From NCBI GenBank assembly GCA_003862195.1, contig QOUO01000007.1:1-64000 (forward strand): 64,000 nt of DNA, given 5' to 3'. Below, in pieces: positions 6,345-15,535 of this stretch; position 1 is the stretch's first letter; each line of letters starts with the position of its first letter. The stretch is from Coriobacteriaceae bacterium. Lineage in GTDB: Bacteria; Actinomycetota; Coriobacteriia; Coriobacteriales; Atopobiaceae. A program made the translations under genes and the position numbers. The notes below the pieces were generated by a model. That model made no database searches. It was given only the letters and a program-made list of their open reading frames with translations, and was not told where the DNA came from.

Positions 6345-6407
6345 GGTTCTCCTCTCCACCACATCAAGCGCGTCGGGCCTTGTCCCGCGCGCCACTGTCC
6401 GGTGTGC

Positions 6408-6428
6408 GATTGGCCCATGCGGCCAATC
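6408..6428. promoter_or_regulatory. Perfect inverted repeat, candidate operator
   Basis: GATTGGCC-CATGC-GGCCAATC, 8-bp arms, about 64 nt upstream of the scaffold gene start. On the minus strand it lies just downstream of a TAAAAT (6433-6438) that could be a -10 element, so it could be a repressor site. No T-run follows, which argues against a terminator. Confidence 0.55.
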
Positions 6429-6532
6429 AAGCCCATTTTATGCCACGCGGCGGATGAGCGACCACAATACCTTCAACTTCGTCCGAAAATATCGCCGAGC
6501 AAGCGGTTGTTTCGGATACGTGGTCATTTTGT

Positions 6533-6545
6533 GGCGAGAAGGACG
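6533..6545 (+). repeat. Dispersed motif copy
   Basis: GGCGAGAAGGACG in the spacer between divergent genes, about 50 nt upstream of the first DMT transporter gene. Confidence 0.8.
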
Positions 6546-6578
6546 CGCCCCCTCGGCCGGTGGCGCCCTCGGGTCCCG

Positions 6579-6591
6579 TATAATCGGCTGG
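6579..6591 (+). promoter_or_regulatory. TATAAT -10 element of a probably leaderless transcript
   Basis: A perfect TATAAT at 6579-6584 is followed by seven bases and then ATG 6592. The expected transcription start therefore falls on or beside the start codon, and no SD sequence is present. A recognisable -35 was not seen. Confidence 0.6.
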
Positions 6592-7521
6592 ATGAGGCTT
6601 CCGAGGAACATACCGTCCTGGGCGTACGCCGTGGCCGTCGTGCTCACGACCGTGGCGTACGGTTCGTCCTACGTGGTGATGAAGGACGTCCTGCGCCGCA
6701 TGCCCACGTCGTGGTTCCTGGCGCTCCGCTTTGCGCTCGCGGCCGTGGTGCTTGCACTTCTCTTCCGCAAGAGGATCGCGCGCTGCCTGGACGCCTCGCA
6801 CGTGGTGGCGGGCGCCTGTGTGGGCGTGCCAGAGTCGCCGGGGTTCCTCCTGCAGAACCTGGGCCTCACGGGCACCACGCCCGGCCGCAACGCCTTCCTC
6901 ACGGCCACGTACTGCGTGATGGTGCCGTTTCTGGCCTGGGCCGTGGAGCGCAGGCGCCCCGGCGCCAACAACGTCGTGGCGGCCCTGTTGTGCCTCGCGG
7001 GCGTGGGGCTGCTCTCGCTCGGGGGCACGCTGGGCCCGAGCCTTGGGACGGGCGACCTCCTGACCCTGCTCTCCGCGCTGGCGTTCGCGACCAACATGGT
7101 GGCCGTGGGTAGGCTCGGCCGCGCGCACGACGCCGTGACGCTCACCTTCGTGATGTTCATAGTTTCTGCGCTCGTGTGCCTGGCGTGGGCGCTCCCGACG
7201 GAGCCCCTGCCCGCGCCCGCGGCGCTCGGGCCGGCGTTTTGGCTCGAGGCCCTGTACGTCACGCTCCTCTGCACCGTGTTCGGGCTCCTGGTGCAGAACG
7301 TCGTCCAGGCGCACCTGCCCTCGTCCGAGGTGGCGCTCCTGCTCTCGTTCGAGAGCGTCTTCGCCACGCTGTTCTCGGTCCTGTTCTACGGCGAGGCGCT
7401 CACGGCCACGCTGCTGGCGGGCTTCGCGCTCATCTTTGGCTCCGTTCTCGTGAGCCAGTTCGCGGGCGGCCGGCGCCAGAGGTTCGAGCTCGAGGAGGAG
7501 GTTCGCGATGGAAGGCTCTAG
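6592..7521 (+). CDS. EamA/DMT-superfamily transporter, first of tandem pair
   Basis: 309-aa inner-membrane protein with about ten hydrophobic segments in two EamA repeats, typical of drug/metabolite exporters; the substrate is unknown. ATG 6592 (MRLPRNIPSWAY) was chosen because a TATAAT ends 7 nt upstream and the upstream reading frame has no protein-like character. The gene overlaps the next start by 14 nt. Residues encoded by 6871-7007 are identical to the corresponding part of the neighbour while the flanks differ, which suggests gene conversion. Confidence 0.88.
   Translation: MRLPRNIPSWAYAVAVVLTTVAYGSSYVVMKDVLRRMPTSWFLALRFALAAVVLALLFRKRIARCLDASHVVAGACVGVPESPGFLLQNLGLTGTTPGRNAFLTATYCVMVPFLAWAVERRRPGANNVVAALLCLAGVGLLSLGGTLGPSLGTGDLLTLLSALAFATNMVAVGRLGRAHDAVTLTFVMFIVSALVCLAWALPTEPLPAPAALGPAFWLEALYVTLLCTVFGLLVQNVVQAHLPSSEVALLLSFESVFATLFSVLFYGEALTATLLAGFALIFGSVLVSQFAGGRRQRFELEEEVRDGRL
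6871..7007 (+). repeat. 137-nt tract identical to 7820-7956
   Basis: Base-for-base identity with the tract in the next gene, including all third codon positions; similarity falls abruptly on both sides. Encodes GTTPGRNAFLTATY through AALLCLAGVG. Confidence 0.9.
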
Positions 7522-8452
7522 CACGGCGCGCGCCGGCGCGGCGGAGGGCAAGCGGGGCACGCCCGTCTGGGTGTTCGAGCTGGGGCTCCTGCTCACAGCC
7601 ATCATCTGGGGCGGGTCCTTCGTGGTGCTCAAGGACACGCTCGACGCGATGACGCCCATCTGGATCATCGCGTTGCGCTTTGGCCTGGCCACCGTCGCCA
7701 TGGTCATCGTGTTCCACCGGCGGCTGGCGTGCTACCTCGACCTCTCGCACGTGGTCGCGGGTGTGGCCATCGGCCTGCCCGAGGGGCTTGGCTTCCTCAT
7801 CCAGAACGTTGGCCTCGCCGGCACCACGCCCGGCCGCAACGCCTTCCTCACGGCCACGTACTGCGTGATGGTGCCGTTTCTGGCCTGGGCCGTGGAGCGC
7901 AGGCGCCCCGGCGCCAACAACGTCGTGGCGGCCCTGTTGTGCCTCGCGGGCGTGGGCTTTTTGGCGCTTTCGGGCGAGAAGGGCTTCGGCCTCGGCGTGG
8001 GCGACCTTCTCACCCTGCTATCCGCGTTCTTCTTCGCGCTCAACATCGTGGCCGTGGGGCGCTTTGGGTCCGCGCACGATACCATGGTCATCACGACGGT
8101 CATGTTCGCCGTGAGCTTTGTGGTGTGCCTGGGCGCGGCGCTCGCGCTCGAGCCCGTGCCCGACTTCGCGGCGCTGCCGGGAAGCTTCTGGTGGTCCATG
8201 GCCTACGTGGTGGGCTGCTCCACCATGCTGGGGCTCATCCTGCAGAACGTGGGCCAGCGGCACGTGCCGCCCGCGCAGGCCGCGCTGCTGATGTCGCTCG
8301 AGAGCGTGTTTGCCGTGCTCTTCTCCATCGTGTTCTACGGGGAGCGGCTCACGCCGGCGCTGCTCGCGGGCTTCGTGCTCATCTTCCTGGCGGTCACCGT
8401 GAGCCAGTTTGGCCCGGCGATGTGGGAGCGCCTGCGGATTGGGCGAAAATGA
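7508..8452 (+). CDS. EamA/DMT-superfamily transporter, second of tandem pair
   Basis: 314-aa paralogue of the preceding transporter, with two EamA repeats and about ten membrane segments. ATG 7508 has GAGGAGG at 7494-7500, inside the end of the upstream gene, so translation is probably coupled. It shares a 46-residue block with its neighbour without any nucleotide difference. Elsewhere the two are clearly diverged (for example GLGFLIQNVGLA against SPGFLLQNLGLT). The pair could act as separate exporters or as a heterodimer; the substrate is not predictable. Confidence 0.88.
   Translation: MEGSSTARAGAAEGKRGTPVWVFELGLLLTAIIWGGSFVVLKDTLDAMTPIWIIALRFGLATVAMVIVFHRRLACYLDLSHVVAGVAIGLPEGLGFLIQNVGLAGTTPGRNAFLTATYCVMVPFLAWAVERRRPGANNVVAALLCLAGVGFLALSGEKGFGLGVGDLLTLLSAFFFALNIVAVGRFGSAHDTMVITTVMFAVSFVVCLGAALALEPVPDFAALPGSFWWSMAYVVGCSTMLGLILQNVGQRHVPPAQAALLMSLESVFAVLFSIVFYGERLTPALLAGFVLIFLAVTVSQFGPAMWERLRIGRK
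7820..7956 (+). repeat. 137-nt tract identical to 6871-7007
   Basis: Second copy of the identical tract, spaced 949 nt from the first. Confidence 0.9.
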
Positions 8453-8524
8453 CCGTGCCCGCGCGGCCCGGACACGCTACGCTAGAGAGATGCGGAACGG
8501 CAGCCTATTTCTTGCACAGTTGGC

Positions 8525-8544
8525 CCCAATGTCCCCATATTGGG
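8525..8544. repeat. Short inverted repeat upstream of the SNF2 gene
   Basis: CCCAAT-GTCCCCAT-ATTGGG in the 185-nt spacer. It could be an operator; no convincing promoter was found around it. Confidence 0.35.
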
Positions 8545-8637
8545 TACCAATGTCTGAAAACGGCTTGAAACGAACTCGCGGGACCCTAGCGCGGGGAGTG
8601 GCCGTCGCGCACGCGGCAGCACGGGGAGGTTCGCTGG

Positions 8638-11600
8638 TTGATATCCGAGAAGGCACTTTCCAAGGCATGCAGGCCCGCCATCCTGGGGCGCGCGAGGATC
8701 ATCGCGCGGCGCCAGGACGGCATCTGGAAGCGTAGCTGCAGCTACGAGGACACGCTTACCAGGATAGAGGCGTGCGTGGAGAGTAGCTCCGGCTACCAGG
8801 ACCACTACGACGCGAGCATCACCGTGGACGAGGCGGCGGACCGCGTGGTGGCCTACGACTGCAACTGCCCCGCGGCGCGCACCTACAAGGGCCCCTGCAA
8901 GCACAGCATCGCCCTCGCGCTCGACTTCAACCGCAACGCGGCCGAGTACGCGGGCTACAGCGAGCTCGAGCACGCCAACACCACGACCGTGCTGGGCGAG
9001 TACCTGGACAAGGCGTCCGCGCCGGCCATGCCGCACGTGGGCGCGCTCACGGACCAGCTGCCCGGCAGCGTGCGGCTCGAGACCACGCTCAGCCGCGGGC
9101 GCGACACGTACGTGCACTTCAGGGTGGTGGGCTCCTCCGGCTCCTACATCGTGCGCGACATCGGCACGCTCGAGCAGGACCTGCTGCAGGGCGCCTACCA
9201 CGCCTACGGCAAGAAGCTCGCCTTCGTGCACGAGCCGCAGATGTTCGACGAGCTGTCGCGCCAGGTGGGGGAGTTCGTGGCGCGCGCCGTGCAGAACCGC
9301 AAGTCCTTCTCCGCGCACCGCGTGGCCGCCCGCGTGTACGGCATGTCCTCCGCCCAGCCGGAGCTCGGCCGCGACCTCAGGCTCACGCCGCCCGAGCTGG
9401 ACGAGCTCGTGGGCATATTCATGGGCCACGAGCTGGAGGTCGAGTTCCTCTCGCCCGAGACGGGGCGCGTCAGCGTGCCGGCCCGCAGGGTGGCCGTGGC
9501 GGAGGGCGACCCGGACGTGTCCATGCGGCTGGTGGGCGCGGGCGACAACGCCTTCGAGCTCGAGCGCGGCGAGGACGTGGACTTCTTCGGCACGCCAGAG
9601 CACCTCTACGCCGTCACGGGGGACAAGCTCCTACGCTGCTCTGATCGGCTCTTTGGCATCGCGCCGTTCCTCACCACGGTCTACTCCAGCCCCGACCAGC
9701 GCATCATCCTGGGTCAGCGCGACGTGCCGCGATTTGCGGCCACGGTGCTCCCAAAGGTGGGCAAGGCCATGCGCGTGGACGTTCCCTCGCAGGTGAGCGC
9801 CCAGCTGCCCGACCCGCTGCGCGTCGAGTTCGAGCTCGACCACACCCGTGCCGGCGTCACGTGCCGCGCGAGCGCGGTCTACGGCGAGAAGAGCTACCCC
9901 CTGCTCGCGCGCGAGGTCGGTCCCGTGCGCGACCTCGGTCGCGACCTCGCGGGCGAGGCCGCGGCGCGCCAGGTCGTGGGGTCGTACTTCTCGCTCGGGA
10001 CGGGGGCCTCGTCCGGCATCGCCACCATCCCGGAGCGCGACGGCTCGGCCATCGCGCGCCTCGTGTTCGAGGGCGTGGACAGCCTGCGCAGGGTGGGGAC
10101 CGTGCGCACCACCAAGGCGTTCGACGGCCTGGTGCGGCGCGAGGCCCCGCGCGTGCAGGTGGCGCTCACCGTGCGCGCCAACCTCATCAACCTCAAGGTG
10201 AGCGCGGACGACCTGCCGCTTTCCGAGCTGTACTCCCTGCTCGAGGGCTACCGCCGCCACGAGCGCTTCCACCGGCTGCGCGACGGCTCGTTTGTGGACC
10301 TCTCCGGCGCGGACCTCTCCGAGGCCGCGCGCCTGGCGGACGAGCTCAACCTCACGGCGCGGGAGCTTTCCAGCGGCAACGTGCAGATTCCCAGCTACAA
10401 GGCGTTCCTGCTCGACCACATCATGACGGATGACGAGAAGGACGAGTCCTTCCGCTCCTACGTCGACAACTTCCGCTCCGTCGACCCCACCCGCTACGAG
10501 CCGCCCGCGACCATCGCGCCGCGGCTGCGCCCGTACCAGGTGGCCGGCTTCCAGTGGCTGTGCGCCCTGGCTGACATGGGCTTTGGCGGCATCCTCGCGG
10601 ACGAGATGGGCCTGGGCAAGTCCGTCCAGATGATATCGTTCCTGCTCGCGCACCGCGGCAGGGGCACCACGCTCGTGGTGTGCCCGGCGTCGCTCGTGTA
10701 CAACTGGGCGGCGGAGTTCGAGAAGTTCGCGCCCCAGATGGACGTGGCCGTGGTGGTGGGGACGGCGCCGGAGCGCGCCCGCATCCGCCGCGAGCGCGGC
10801 CACGAGGTGCTCATCACGAGCTACGACCTGGTGCGGCGCGACATCGAGTCCTACGCCAACATGGACTTCTGGTGCGAGGTTCTGGACGAGGCGCAGTACA
10901 TAAAGAACCACGAGACGCTGGCCGCCCGCGCGGTCAAGGCCGTGCCGGCCCGCCACCGCTTCGCGCTCACGGGCACGCCGATCGAGAACCGCCTGTCCGA
11001 GCTCTGGAGCATTTTCGACTACCTCATGCCCGGCCTGCTAGGCGGCTACGAGCGCTTCCGCGAGCGCTACGAGGAGCCCATCCTCGCGGGCGACACGGAG
11101 TGCGCGGAGCGCCTGCGCGACGCCATCGGCCCCTTCGTGCTCAGGCGTCTCAAGCGCGACGTCCTGCACGACCTGCCCGAAAAGCTCGAGCAGGTGGTCT
11201 ACGCGCACCTGGAGGGCGAGCAGCGCCGCCTGTACCAGGCGCACGAGCAGGCGCTGCGCCTCTCCATCACCTCCAAGAGCGACTCGGAGCTCCGCCGCGG
11301 CAAGATCCAGGTGCTGGCCGAGCTCATGCGCCTGCGCCAGATCTGCTGCGACCCGCGGCTCGTCTACGCGGACTACACGGGCCCCTCGGCCAAGCTCGAC
11401 ACGATCTGCTCGCTCGTGGACCGCGTGGTGGACGCACAGGAGAAGATGCTCGTGTTCTCGCAGTTCACGAGCTACCTCGACCTCATCGCGGACCGGCTCG
11501 ACGCCGAGGGCGTGGAGTACTACACGCTCACGGGGTCGACCCCCAAGCAGCGCCGCGTCGAGCTCGTGGACGAGTTCAACAAGAACGACGTCCCCGTGTT

Positions 11601-13359: not shown

Positions 13360-14211
13360 TCAGACCTCCTGGCCAAACCACTTGATCTCGAGCTTCTTCA
13401 TGGTGCCGTCCTTCTTCATGGCCTTGAGCGCCTTGTTGATGGCCTTGGTGAGGTTGGGGTTCTTCTTGCTCACGACGATGCCGTACTGCTCGCCGGTCGC
13501 GATCTCGCCCCCCTCGGGGATCTCGAGGTCGGAGTACGCCTGCTTGATCTCATAGGAGGTCACGGGGAGGTCGGCCACGCAGGCGTTGTAGAGCCCGGAC
13601 TGCACGCCGGTCAGGGCCTGGATGATGTCGTCCAGGGGGACGGTCGTGGCCTTGGGCAGGTTCTCCTTGGCCCACGACTCGCCGGTGGTGCCAGACTGGA
13701 CGGCGATCTGCATGCCCTTGGCGTTGAGCTGGTCGGAGGTGGTGGCGGTGGCGCCCTTCTTCACGACGATGGACTGGTTGGAGTCCAGGTACGGCGTGCT
13801 GAAGTCGATCTCCTTCTTGCGGTCGTCCGTGATGGTGATGGCGCCGATGGAGACGTCCGCCTTGCCGCCCTGCTTGATGGTCGGGACGATGGTGTCGAAC
13901 TGGACGGAGGGCAGGATGCGCGCCTTGAGCTTGAGGCGGCTGCAGATCTCCTTGTAGACGTCGACGTCGAAGCCCTCGAAGTCGCCCGTCTTGTCGTCCA
14001 TCGATACGAAGGGCGGGAAGTAGAAGTTCGATATCATCGTGAGGCTGCCCTTTTTGACCAGCGTGTAGCCGGAGCCGCTGGAGCCCGAGCTGGAGCTGGA
14101 GTCGGAGCCCGAGCCGCCGCAGCCCGCGAGCACGCTGCCGAGCCCGAGGCCGACGGCGCTCAGCCCGCACATCTGGAAGAAGTCGCGACGGGTGAAGTTT
14201 GCCTGGTTCAT
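13360..14211 (-). CDS. Amino-acid-type ABC substrate-binding lipoprotein (Tat signal)
   Basis: 283-aa extracytoplasmic solute-binding protein of family 3 (polar amino acids/opines). The N-terminus has a twin-arginine motif (FTRRDFFQMCG) followed by a lipobox ending LAGC, then a Ser/Gly linker. Binding-domain motifs include GFDVDVYKEICSRL and ITDDRKKEIDFSTPYLDS. ATG 14211 has GAGGGG upstream. No permease or ATPase gene is adjacent; the only neighbour of this kind is the paralogue immediately upstream. The ligand is unknown. Confidence 0.9.
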   Translation of the reverse strand: MNQANFTRRDFFQMCGLSAVGLGLGSVLAGCGGSGSDSSSSSGSSGSGYTLVKKGSLTMISNFYFPPFVSMDDKTGDFEGFDVDVYKEICSRLKLKARILPSVQFDTIVPTIKQGGKADVSIGAITITDDRKKEIDFSTPYLDSNQSIVVKKGATATTSDQLNAKGMQIAVQSGTTGESWAKENLPKATTVPLDDIIQALTGVQSGLYNACVADLPVTSYEIKQAYSDLEIPEGGEIATGEQYGIVVSKKNPNLTKAINKALKAMKKDGTMKKLEIKWFGQEV

Positions 14212-14267
14212 GCTTGGTTTCCCCTCTGGAGTCTGGTGTCAGGTCGTGCCGCTTCTTTAGGTACGCT

Positions 14268-14280
14268 GGGCGAGAAGGAC
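14268..14280 (+). repeat. Dispersed motif copy
   Basis: GGGCGAGAAGGAC, touching the stop codon of the upstream binding-protein gene and lying between the two paralogues. Confidence 0.8.
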
Positions 14281-15176
14281 TACAGCGTGGTGCCGAACCA
14301 CTTCTTCTGGAGCGTGTCCATGGTGCCGTCCTTCTTGATGGCCTCGATCGCGCTGTTGAGGTCCTTGAGCAGCTTGGTGTTCTTCTTGCTGACGACGATG
14401 CCGTACTGCTCGCCCGTGGCGATCTGGATGTCGACCTGCAGGTCCGTGTAGGACTTGGTGCAGAGGTACGACGCGACGGGGAGGTCGAGCACGGCTGCGT
14501 TGTACAGGCCGGACTGGACGCCGGTCATGGCCTGGATGGCGTCGTCCAGCGGGACGCAGGTCGCCTTGGAGAGGTTCTCCTTGACCCAGGACTCGCCGGT
14601 GGTGCCGGACTGGACGGCGATCTGCTTGCCCTTGGCGTTGAGCTGGTCCTCGCTCACCTTGCCGTCGGCCTTGCGGTTGACGAGGCCCTGGTTGGAGTTG
14701 AGGTAGGGCTTGGTGAAGTTGATCTCCTTCTTGCGGTCGTCCGTGATGGTGAAGGCCGAGACGCCCACGTCCGCCTTGCCGCCCTGCTTGATGAGCGGGA
14801 TGATCGTGTCGAACTTGGTGGCGGGCAGCCACTCCATCTCGAGGTCGAGCTTGGCAGCCAGGGCGTCCATCATGTCGATCTCGAAGCCCTCGGGCTTGGT
14901 GGAGCCGTCCGGGATGGACTCGAGCGGCGGGTAGGCCATGTCGGAGACGCCGATCAGCTTTCCCTTCTTGACGAGGATGTACTCCTTCGCGCCCTTGGAG
15001 GAGGATGACGAGGACGAGCCGCTCGAACTCGAGTCAGAACTGGAGCCTCCGCAGCCGGCGAGCAGGGTCGCGGCCCCCATTCCAACGATGCTCAGCCCGC
15101 AGGCGTTGACGAACTGTCGCCTGGACATGCCGGTCTCGACGAGGTCCCTGATGTGGCTCTGCTTCTTGTTCTGCAT
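14280..15176 (-). CDS. Amino-acid-type ABC substrate-binding lipoprotein (Tat signal), paralogue
   Basis: 298-aa family 3 binding lipoprotein, clearly paralogous to the next gene downstream (shared DDRKKEI, VQSGTTGESWVKENL and EQYGIVVSKKN). The signal has MSRRQFVNACG, a Tat-type motif, then LLAGC, then a long Ser-rich linker. The start ATG 15176 (MQNKKQSH) was chosen for GGAG 6-9 nt upstream. The transporter components it serves are elsewhere. Probably co-transcribed with its paralogue; an operon of two binding proteins and no channel is unusual. Confidence 0.88.
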   Translation of the reverse strand: MQNKKQSHIRDLVETGMSRRQFVNACGLSIVGMGAATLLAGCGGSSSDSSSSGSSSSSSSKGAKEYILVKKGKLIGVSDMAYPPLESIPDGSTKPEGFEIDMMDALAAKLDLEMEWLPATKFDTIIPLIKQGGKADVGVSAFTITDDRKKEINFTKPYLNSNQGLVNRKADGKVSEDQLNAKGKQIAVQSGTTGESWVKENLSKATCVPLDDAIQAMTGVQSGLYNAAVLDLPVASYLCTKSYTDLQVDIQIATGEQYGIVVSKKNTKLLKDLNSAIEAIKKDGTMDTLQKKWFGTTL

Positions 15177-15535
15177 GATTGCTCCGTCCCTATTTGCTTG
15201 CACGGCAGTCATCTTTGTTGCCGCGCTGTTCACGCCCGGGGGTTGCTCCGTGCGTTGTTGGGGAGTATCGACTTTTGTGCATCGTAGGTTGACGCAATCT
15301 GAAGATTCGTAACATAACGGCTATAAATAAGATGCAAATTTGCAAGCTAATGCGTTGGAAGTGACTTGCGAAACAACTGCATGCATACAGGCGAAATGTA
15401 TGAGAAACGCTTCCGTCCATTTGCTGTGCCCGTTGCGTGAGAGCGGAAGAAAGGTCCGCCGTTCTTCTCAGATTGTGCAATACTTCCCATGTTGTGTAGT
15501 ACTGCTCGACGTGAGCATGAGTGGGAGGCGTGTTG
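15177..15535. other. Divergent intergenic region, AT-richer than its surroundings
   Basis: No gene seen in 359 nt. Notable elements are a 10-bp palindrome GCAAATTTGC (15334-15343), TATAAA at 15322-15327, TTGACG at 15289-15294 and a partial dispersed motif (CCGTTCTTCTC, 15459-15469). It should hold the promoters of the binding-protein pair (minus) and of the TetR-like/activase pair (plus). None of the promoter boxes has convincing spacing. Confidence 0.4.

Follow-up and report, generated by a model that had tools for sequence, protein, structure and literature searches.

The window, a 64-kb stretch of DNA from the draft genome of a gut-type bacterium (155 contigs, 2.42 Mb, 99.25% complete), carries two transporter genes arranged head to tail on the forward strand. 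Gene 1 (6592-7521, 309 aa) is an open frame that begins with the ATG at 6592, and gene 2 (7508-8452, 314 aa) is an open frame whose first 14 nt lie within the end of gene 1. Two EamA stretches were recognized in each gene, and the matches to PF00892 (E 3.3e-34 for gene 1 and 2.2e-33 for gene 2) scored 118.5 and 115.8 bits against a curated cut-off of 28.2. The NCBIfam matches of the transporter genes were all under the NCBIfam cut-offs. The predicted model of the gene 2 product (pLDDT 88.5, pTM 0.85) contains ten long helices, and a Foldseek comparison of this model gave E values of 6.6e-08 to SLC35B1 and 6.9e-06 to LicB. A search for solved structures related to the transporter by sequence gave no matches; the predicted fold nevertheless resembles those of the solved DMT-fold transporters, namely SLC35B1, the triose-phosphate translocator and LicB. 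Based on the profile matches and the model, both genes are assigned to the EamA (PF00892) DMT transporters with a putative ten-helix DMT fold, and transport is their predicted function.

Our collection included three genomes of the genus, which were the genome of the window and two relatives. One relative, G001, was judged to be Parafannyhessea umbonata strain 105184, and the genome of the other, G002, is a single contig. Both relatives possess the tandem pair, flanked by the same neighbours as in the window. In all three genomes these are an IscU-like protein and a protein that we take to be of the GGGtGRT type on the upstream side, and an SNF2 helicase on the downstream side. The IscU-like neighbour had only weak NifU/IscU matches in NCBIfam, and the GGGtGRT-type neighbour had no NCBIfam match. 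A transporter match at E <= 1e-50 was present in 100 of the 140 family genomes. Two adjacent matches occurred only in the three genus genomes; one other genome of the family (G023) had three matches, none of them adjacent. The same neighbours enclosed just one transporter gene in each of the six outgroup loci that were checked (L009-L013, L019). Slackia isoflavoniconvertens also has two neighbouring genes of this family (L030:1829-3867), with 38% and 48% identity to gene 2 of the window. In addition, a fragment of about 88 nt in a further locus (L075:2231-2318) matched gene 2 of the window from 8065 on at 84 of 88 positions, compared with 62 of 88 for each of the two relatives. This fragment lies inside a sensor-kinase gene, with the reading frame shifted, on a contig of an unrelated low-coverage MAG, and stems either from chimeric assembly or from an ectopic insertion.

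The two transporter genes of the window share a stretch of 137 nt in which all 137 sites are identical. The gene 1 copy is located at 6871-7007 (residues 94-139) and the gene 2 copy at 7820-7956 (residues 105-150), both on the forward strand, with an offset of 949, and the tract is in frame in both genes. In the predicted gene 2 model, helix 4 and most of helix 5 fall within residues 105-150, together with the intervening loop at 131-135, which holds part of ERRRPGANN. This is in keeping with an earlier note on this DNA, which had placed the tract over transmembrane segments and the ERRRPGANN loop and had suggested that this region may be part of the transport path. A mismatch occurs immediately beyond each tract end, on both sides. 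Elsewhere, the two genes match at 477 of the 763 aligned sites (about 63%), with 166/270 matches in the codon-aligned left flank and 311/493 in the right one. The third codon positions are alike at 45/45 in the tract versus 145/255 outside. The perfect identity extending to third positions, the diverged flanks and the sharp borders that the earlier note had described were thus all confirmed. The second-longest exact run in the aligned pair was only 12 nt. One 24-nt match was the sole similarity to the tract elsewhere in the window's genome, and beyond this match no third copy was found there.

Among direct repeats of at least 30 nt, the 64-kb window contained the tract and one other, an exact run of 32 nt (13807 / 14721). 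This run and several shorter ones are common to two tandem paralogous genes at 13360-15233, whose products look from their sequences like ABC-transporter substrate-binding proteins. This second gene pair is a possible further case of conversion.

The identity in the transporter pair greatly exceeded what chance would produce. A GENECONV-like permutation was performed on 443 polymorphic sites in 879 columns. The longest agreeing run of the window pair covered 42 polymorphic sites, compared with a permuted maximum of 14 over 10,000 shuffles. When the relatives' own identity was used as the expected level, full identity had a probability of 10^-12.5 to 10^-14.2 for all sites, and of 10^-7.3 to 10^-8.6 for third positions. 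A fitted substitution model gave a probability of about 10^-25. The empirical values are safer, because the relatives' pairs are more alike than the fitted model predicts.

Part of the likeness between the two genes is to be expected here, since the tract stretch is the best-conserved part of the protein, with many invariant or near-invariant columns at residues 108-127. The relatives' pairs are 79-81% alike in this stretch versus 63-66% outside, where the counts for pairs involving G002 gene 2 include up to about 21 stray columns that leave the tract counts unaffected. However, the identical tract is absent from both orthologous pairs. In the two relatives, the paired genes agree at 111/137 and 108/137 sites (26 and 29 differences), and at 31/45 and 29/45 third positions. 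The same pattern was seen in codons whose amino acid is shared by the two copies. None of 45 such codons differed between the copies in the window tract, while 12/38 and 12/37 differed in the relatives' tract stretch and 46/131 in the window pair outside the tract. The earlier note had suggested that orthologous pairs be compared, and had connected an identity shared by them with codon-level constraint. Since the relatives' pairs differ in the tract stretch, such constraint is refuted, and this result supports the recent gene conversion that the note had proposed.

The phylogenetic trees placed this identity in the context of an old gene pair. Outside the tract, the three genomes formed a gene 1 clade and a gene 2 clade, each with 100% ultrafast bootstrap, and a tree pairing gene 1 of the window with gene 2 was rejected (delta lnL 110.8, AU p 3.1e-06). 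Gene 1 clustered with the genes that Olsenella intestinalis and a related MAG carry as single copies. The two paralogues appear to be older than the genus, and one of them may have been acquired horizontally. A duplication inside the genus was also considered and rejected (AU p 0.0011 for DNA and 0.0005 for protein). As the paralogues are old, the identity of the tract is no remnant of a recent duplication. For the tract alone, the topology found outside it was rejected (AU p 0.0043); a looser constraint, which kept each window gene with its own orthologues, was not rejected over these 135 nt (AU p 0.14). This tract-only tree evidence is weak, so the case rests on the exact identity. With zero differences in 137 sites, simple arithmetic puts the divergence at no more than about 2.2% (upper 95% bound). 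In the same stretch the two relatives differ from each other at 9/137 sites in gene 1 and at 14/137 in gene 2, which probably dates the event to a time after these two had diverged.

Taken together, the 137-nt identity is very probably the product of a recent short-patch interlocus gene conversion between old tandem paralogues. The conversion would have taken place on the branch leading to the window's genome, once this had separated from the other two sequenced genomes of the genus.

The tract contains states characteristic of both genes. It matches the relatives' gene 1 at 114 and 113 of 137 sites, and their gene 2 at 114 and 116 of 137. The window pair fitted equally well in the gene 1 clade and in the gene 2 clade of the tract tree (lnL -1375.94 and -1376.09). 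Diagnostic sites, at which the relatives agree within each gene and differ between genes, were polarised with ten outgroups; the window tract was gene-2-like at 10 of these 16 sites and gene-1-like at 6. The GGC at the left tract end (6871-6873) resembles gene 2 and Olsenella porci, and a resemblance to gene 1 is seen at 6934-6935 (Ala codon) and 6946-6947 (Glu codon). Site likelihoods, for segments picked after the sites had been viewed, assigned the first 60 nt to gene 2 (-15.4) and 6931-6950 to gene 1 (+14.1), with equal totals. The clustering of the diagnostic states along the tract was not significant in a runs test (p 0.29), and a two-way mosaic is offered here as a suggestion only. The mixed states might be attributed either to donation by both genes, in two events or in one patchy event, or to changes in the relatives at some of the sites.

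Such a patchwork could also arise if a piece had been copied from another cell, with the DNA of a related strain recombining into the wrong paralogue. Mosaic outcomes of transformation are described for Bacillus subtilis in one report (PMC13344027), and exchange between molecules leaves the same trace as exchange within one. Nonetheless, the exact identity of both copies points most simply to a copying event inside the cell or between sisters, and we consider a donor from another cell unlikely.

An assembly artefact, in which the assembler wrote one version into two differing copies, is far harder to sustain, even though the draft assembly is split into 155 contigs and 137 nt is close to the length of a short read. 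We reasoned that a collapse of variants needs flanking words that are shared, whereas the flanks differ at once at all four borders. By similar reasoning, flank-tract-spacer-tract-flank is the sole linear order for a tandem on one contig. The identical layout of the gene pair in the single-contig genome of G002 also argues against an artefact, which we regard as very improbable.

Purifying selection on the nucleotides themselves, through a hidden signal, an RNA or strict codon usage, can practically be set aside: although the stretch is the most conserved region of the protein and the unconverted pairs are more alike there (79-81%) than elsewhere, 43 of its 45 third positions vary among 16 sequences and 23 vary when just the four copies from the two relatives are compared, gene 1 and gene 2 differ at 14 and 16 of these 45 positions in the relatives, and an Rfam search of 6400-8700 for an RNA or hidden signal found zero families.

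The earlier note had also proposed a search for tracts with different borders in related strains, and one candidate was found. The pair of G002 agrees over 12 polymorphic sites within 24 nt (columns 237-260, equivalent to 6796-6819 of the window), where its gene 2 resembles gene 1. The permutation p value was 0.0004 for this single pair, uncorrected for the 9 pairs tested. We regard this patch as a weaker case, a candidate conversion tract with other borders.

The conversion in the window can be pictured as a non-reciprocal homologous recombination that would have made at least 137 nt identical. RecA, which was found in all three genus genomes, may have mediated pairing of the two copies, within one chromosome or between sister chromosomes. 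Pairing would start in the core coding for TTPGRNAFLTATYCVMVPF. In this core, the unconverted pairs of the relatives remain identical over runs of 26 and 36 nt, and the conserved core is a plausible seed of the exchange. A short heteroduplex would then form and end where homology drops on either side, and the copied strand would subsequently be fixed by replication or repair.

Copies as diverged as these would be expected to have their pairing aborted by mismatch repair, and no protein that would do so was found in the three genus genomes. In the absence of mismatch repair, the pairing of diverged copies is aborted less often, as established for MutS systems. Profile searches with MutS_II, MutS_V, MutL_C and NucS_C gave no match in any of the three genus genomes; in the same searches, the first three profiles each matched 11/14 control genomes and NucS_C matched 7/14. 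At the family level, MutS_II was found in 0/140 genomes. NucS_C had matches in 24/140, of which 7 were above the cut-off; those listed were partial matches that spanned no more than 75 of 124 positions, and it is doubtful that they represent true NucS. The family searches, with no MutS_II and partial NucS_C matches only, agree with a published analysis according to which all Coriobacteriia analysed lack both NucS and MutS-MutL (PMC5290159). The absence of mismatch repair may have eased the exchange between the diverged copies of the window.

Because Coriobacteriia are without known mismatch repair, they may present little barrier to recombination between diverged copies. Neighbours that are about 63% alike could then convert each other in short patches and in both directions, as a general mode of paralogue evolution in the class, a speculative extension that we think improbable at present. 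If it were true, the window tract with its mixed states and the 24-nt candidate of G002 would be two glimpses of this mode. The locus preserves a clean trace of natural short-patch conversion in strongly diverged tandem genes, in a class reported to be without both known mismatch-repair pathways. Tract surveys that compare Coriobacteriia with mismatch-repair-bearing relatives could serve as a natural test of whether recombination becomes less demanding of homology once mismatch repair has been lost.

The tract itself is an ordinary, well-supported event, a conversion of a kind described in bacteria in two reports (PMC4530459, PMC6053082). As presented in the first of these, the conversion between RF1 and RF2 is similar in that a segment of old, diverged bacterial paralogues was overwritten in a region of shared function. 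It was detected there by a conflict between the tree of the segment and that of the rest of the gene, and its direction varied from case to case (PMC4530459). The RF1-RF2 segment, however, corresponds to a domain and the events are ancient (PMC4530459), in contrast to the window tract, which is 137 nt long, exactly identical and located in tandem, overlapping genes. Concerted evolution, as described for tuf, is similar in another respect, since gene conversion there made paralogues closer to each other than to their orthologues, at synonymous sites as well (PMC6053082). In that account the genes are homogenised recurrently (PMC6053082), whereas the pair in the window carries one short patch and has remained diverged over the rest of its length.
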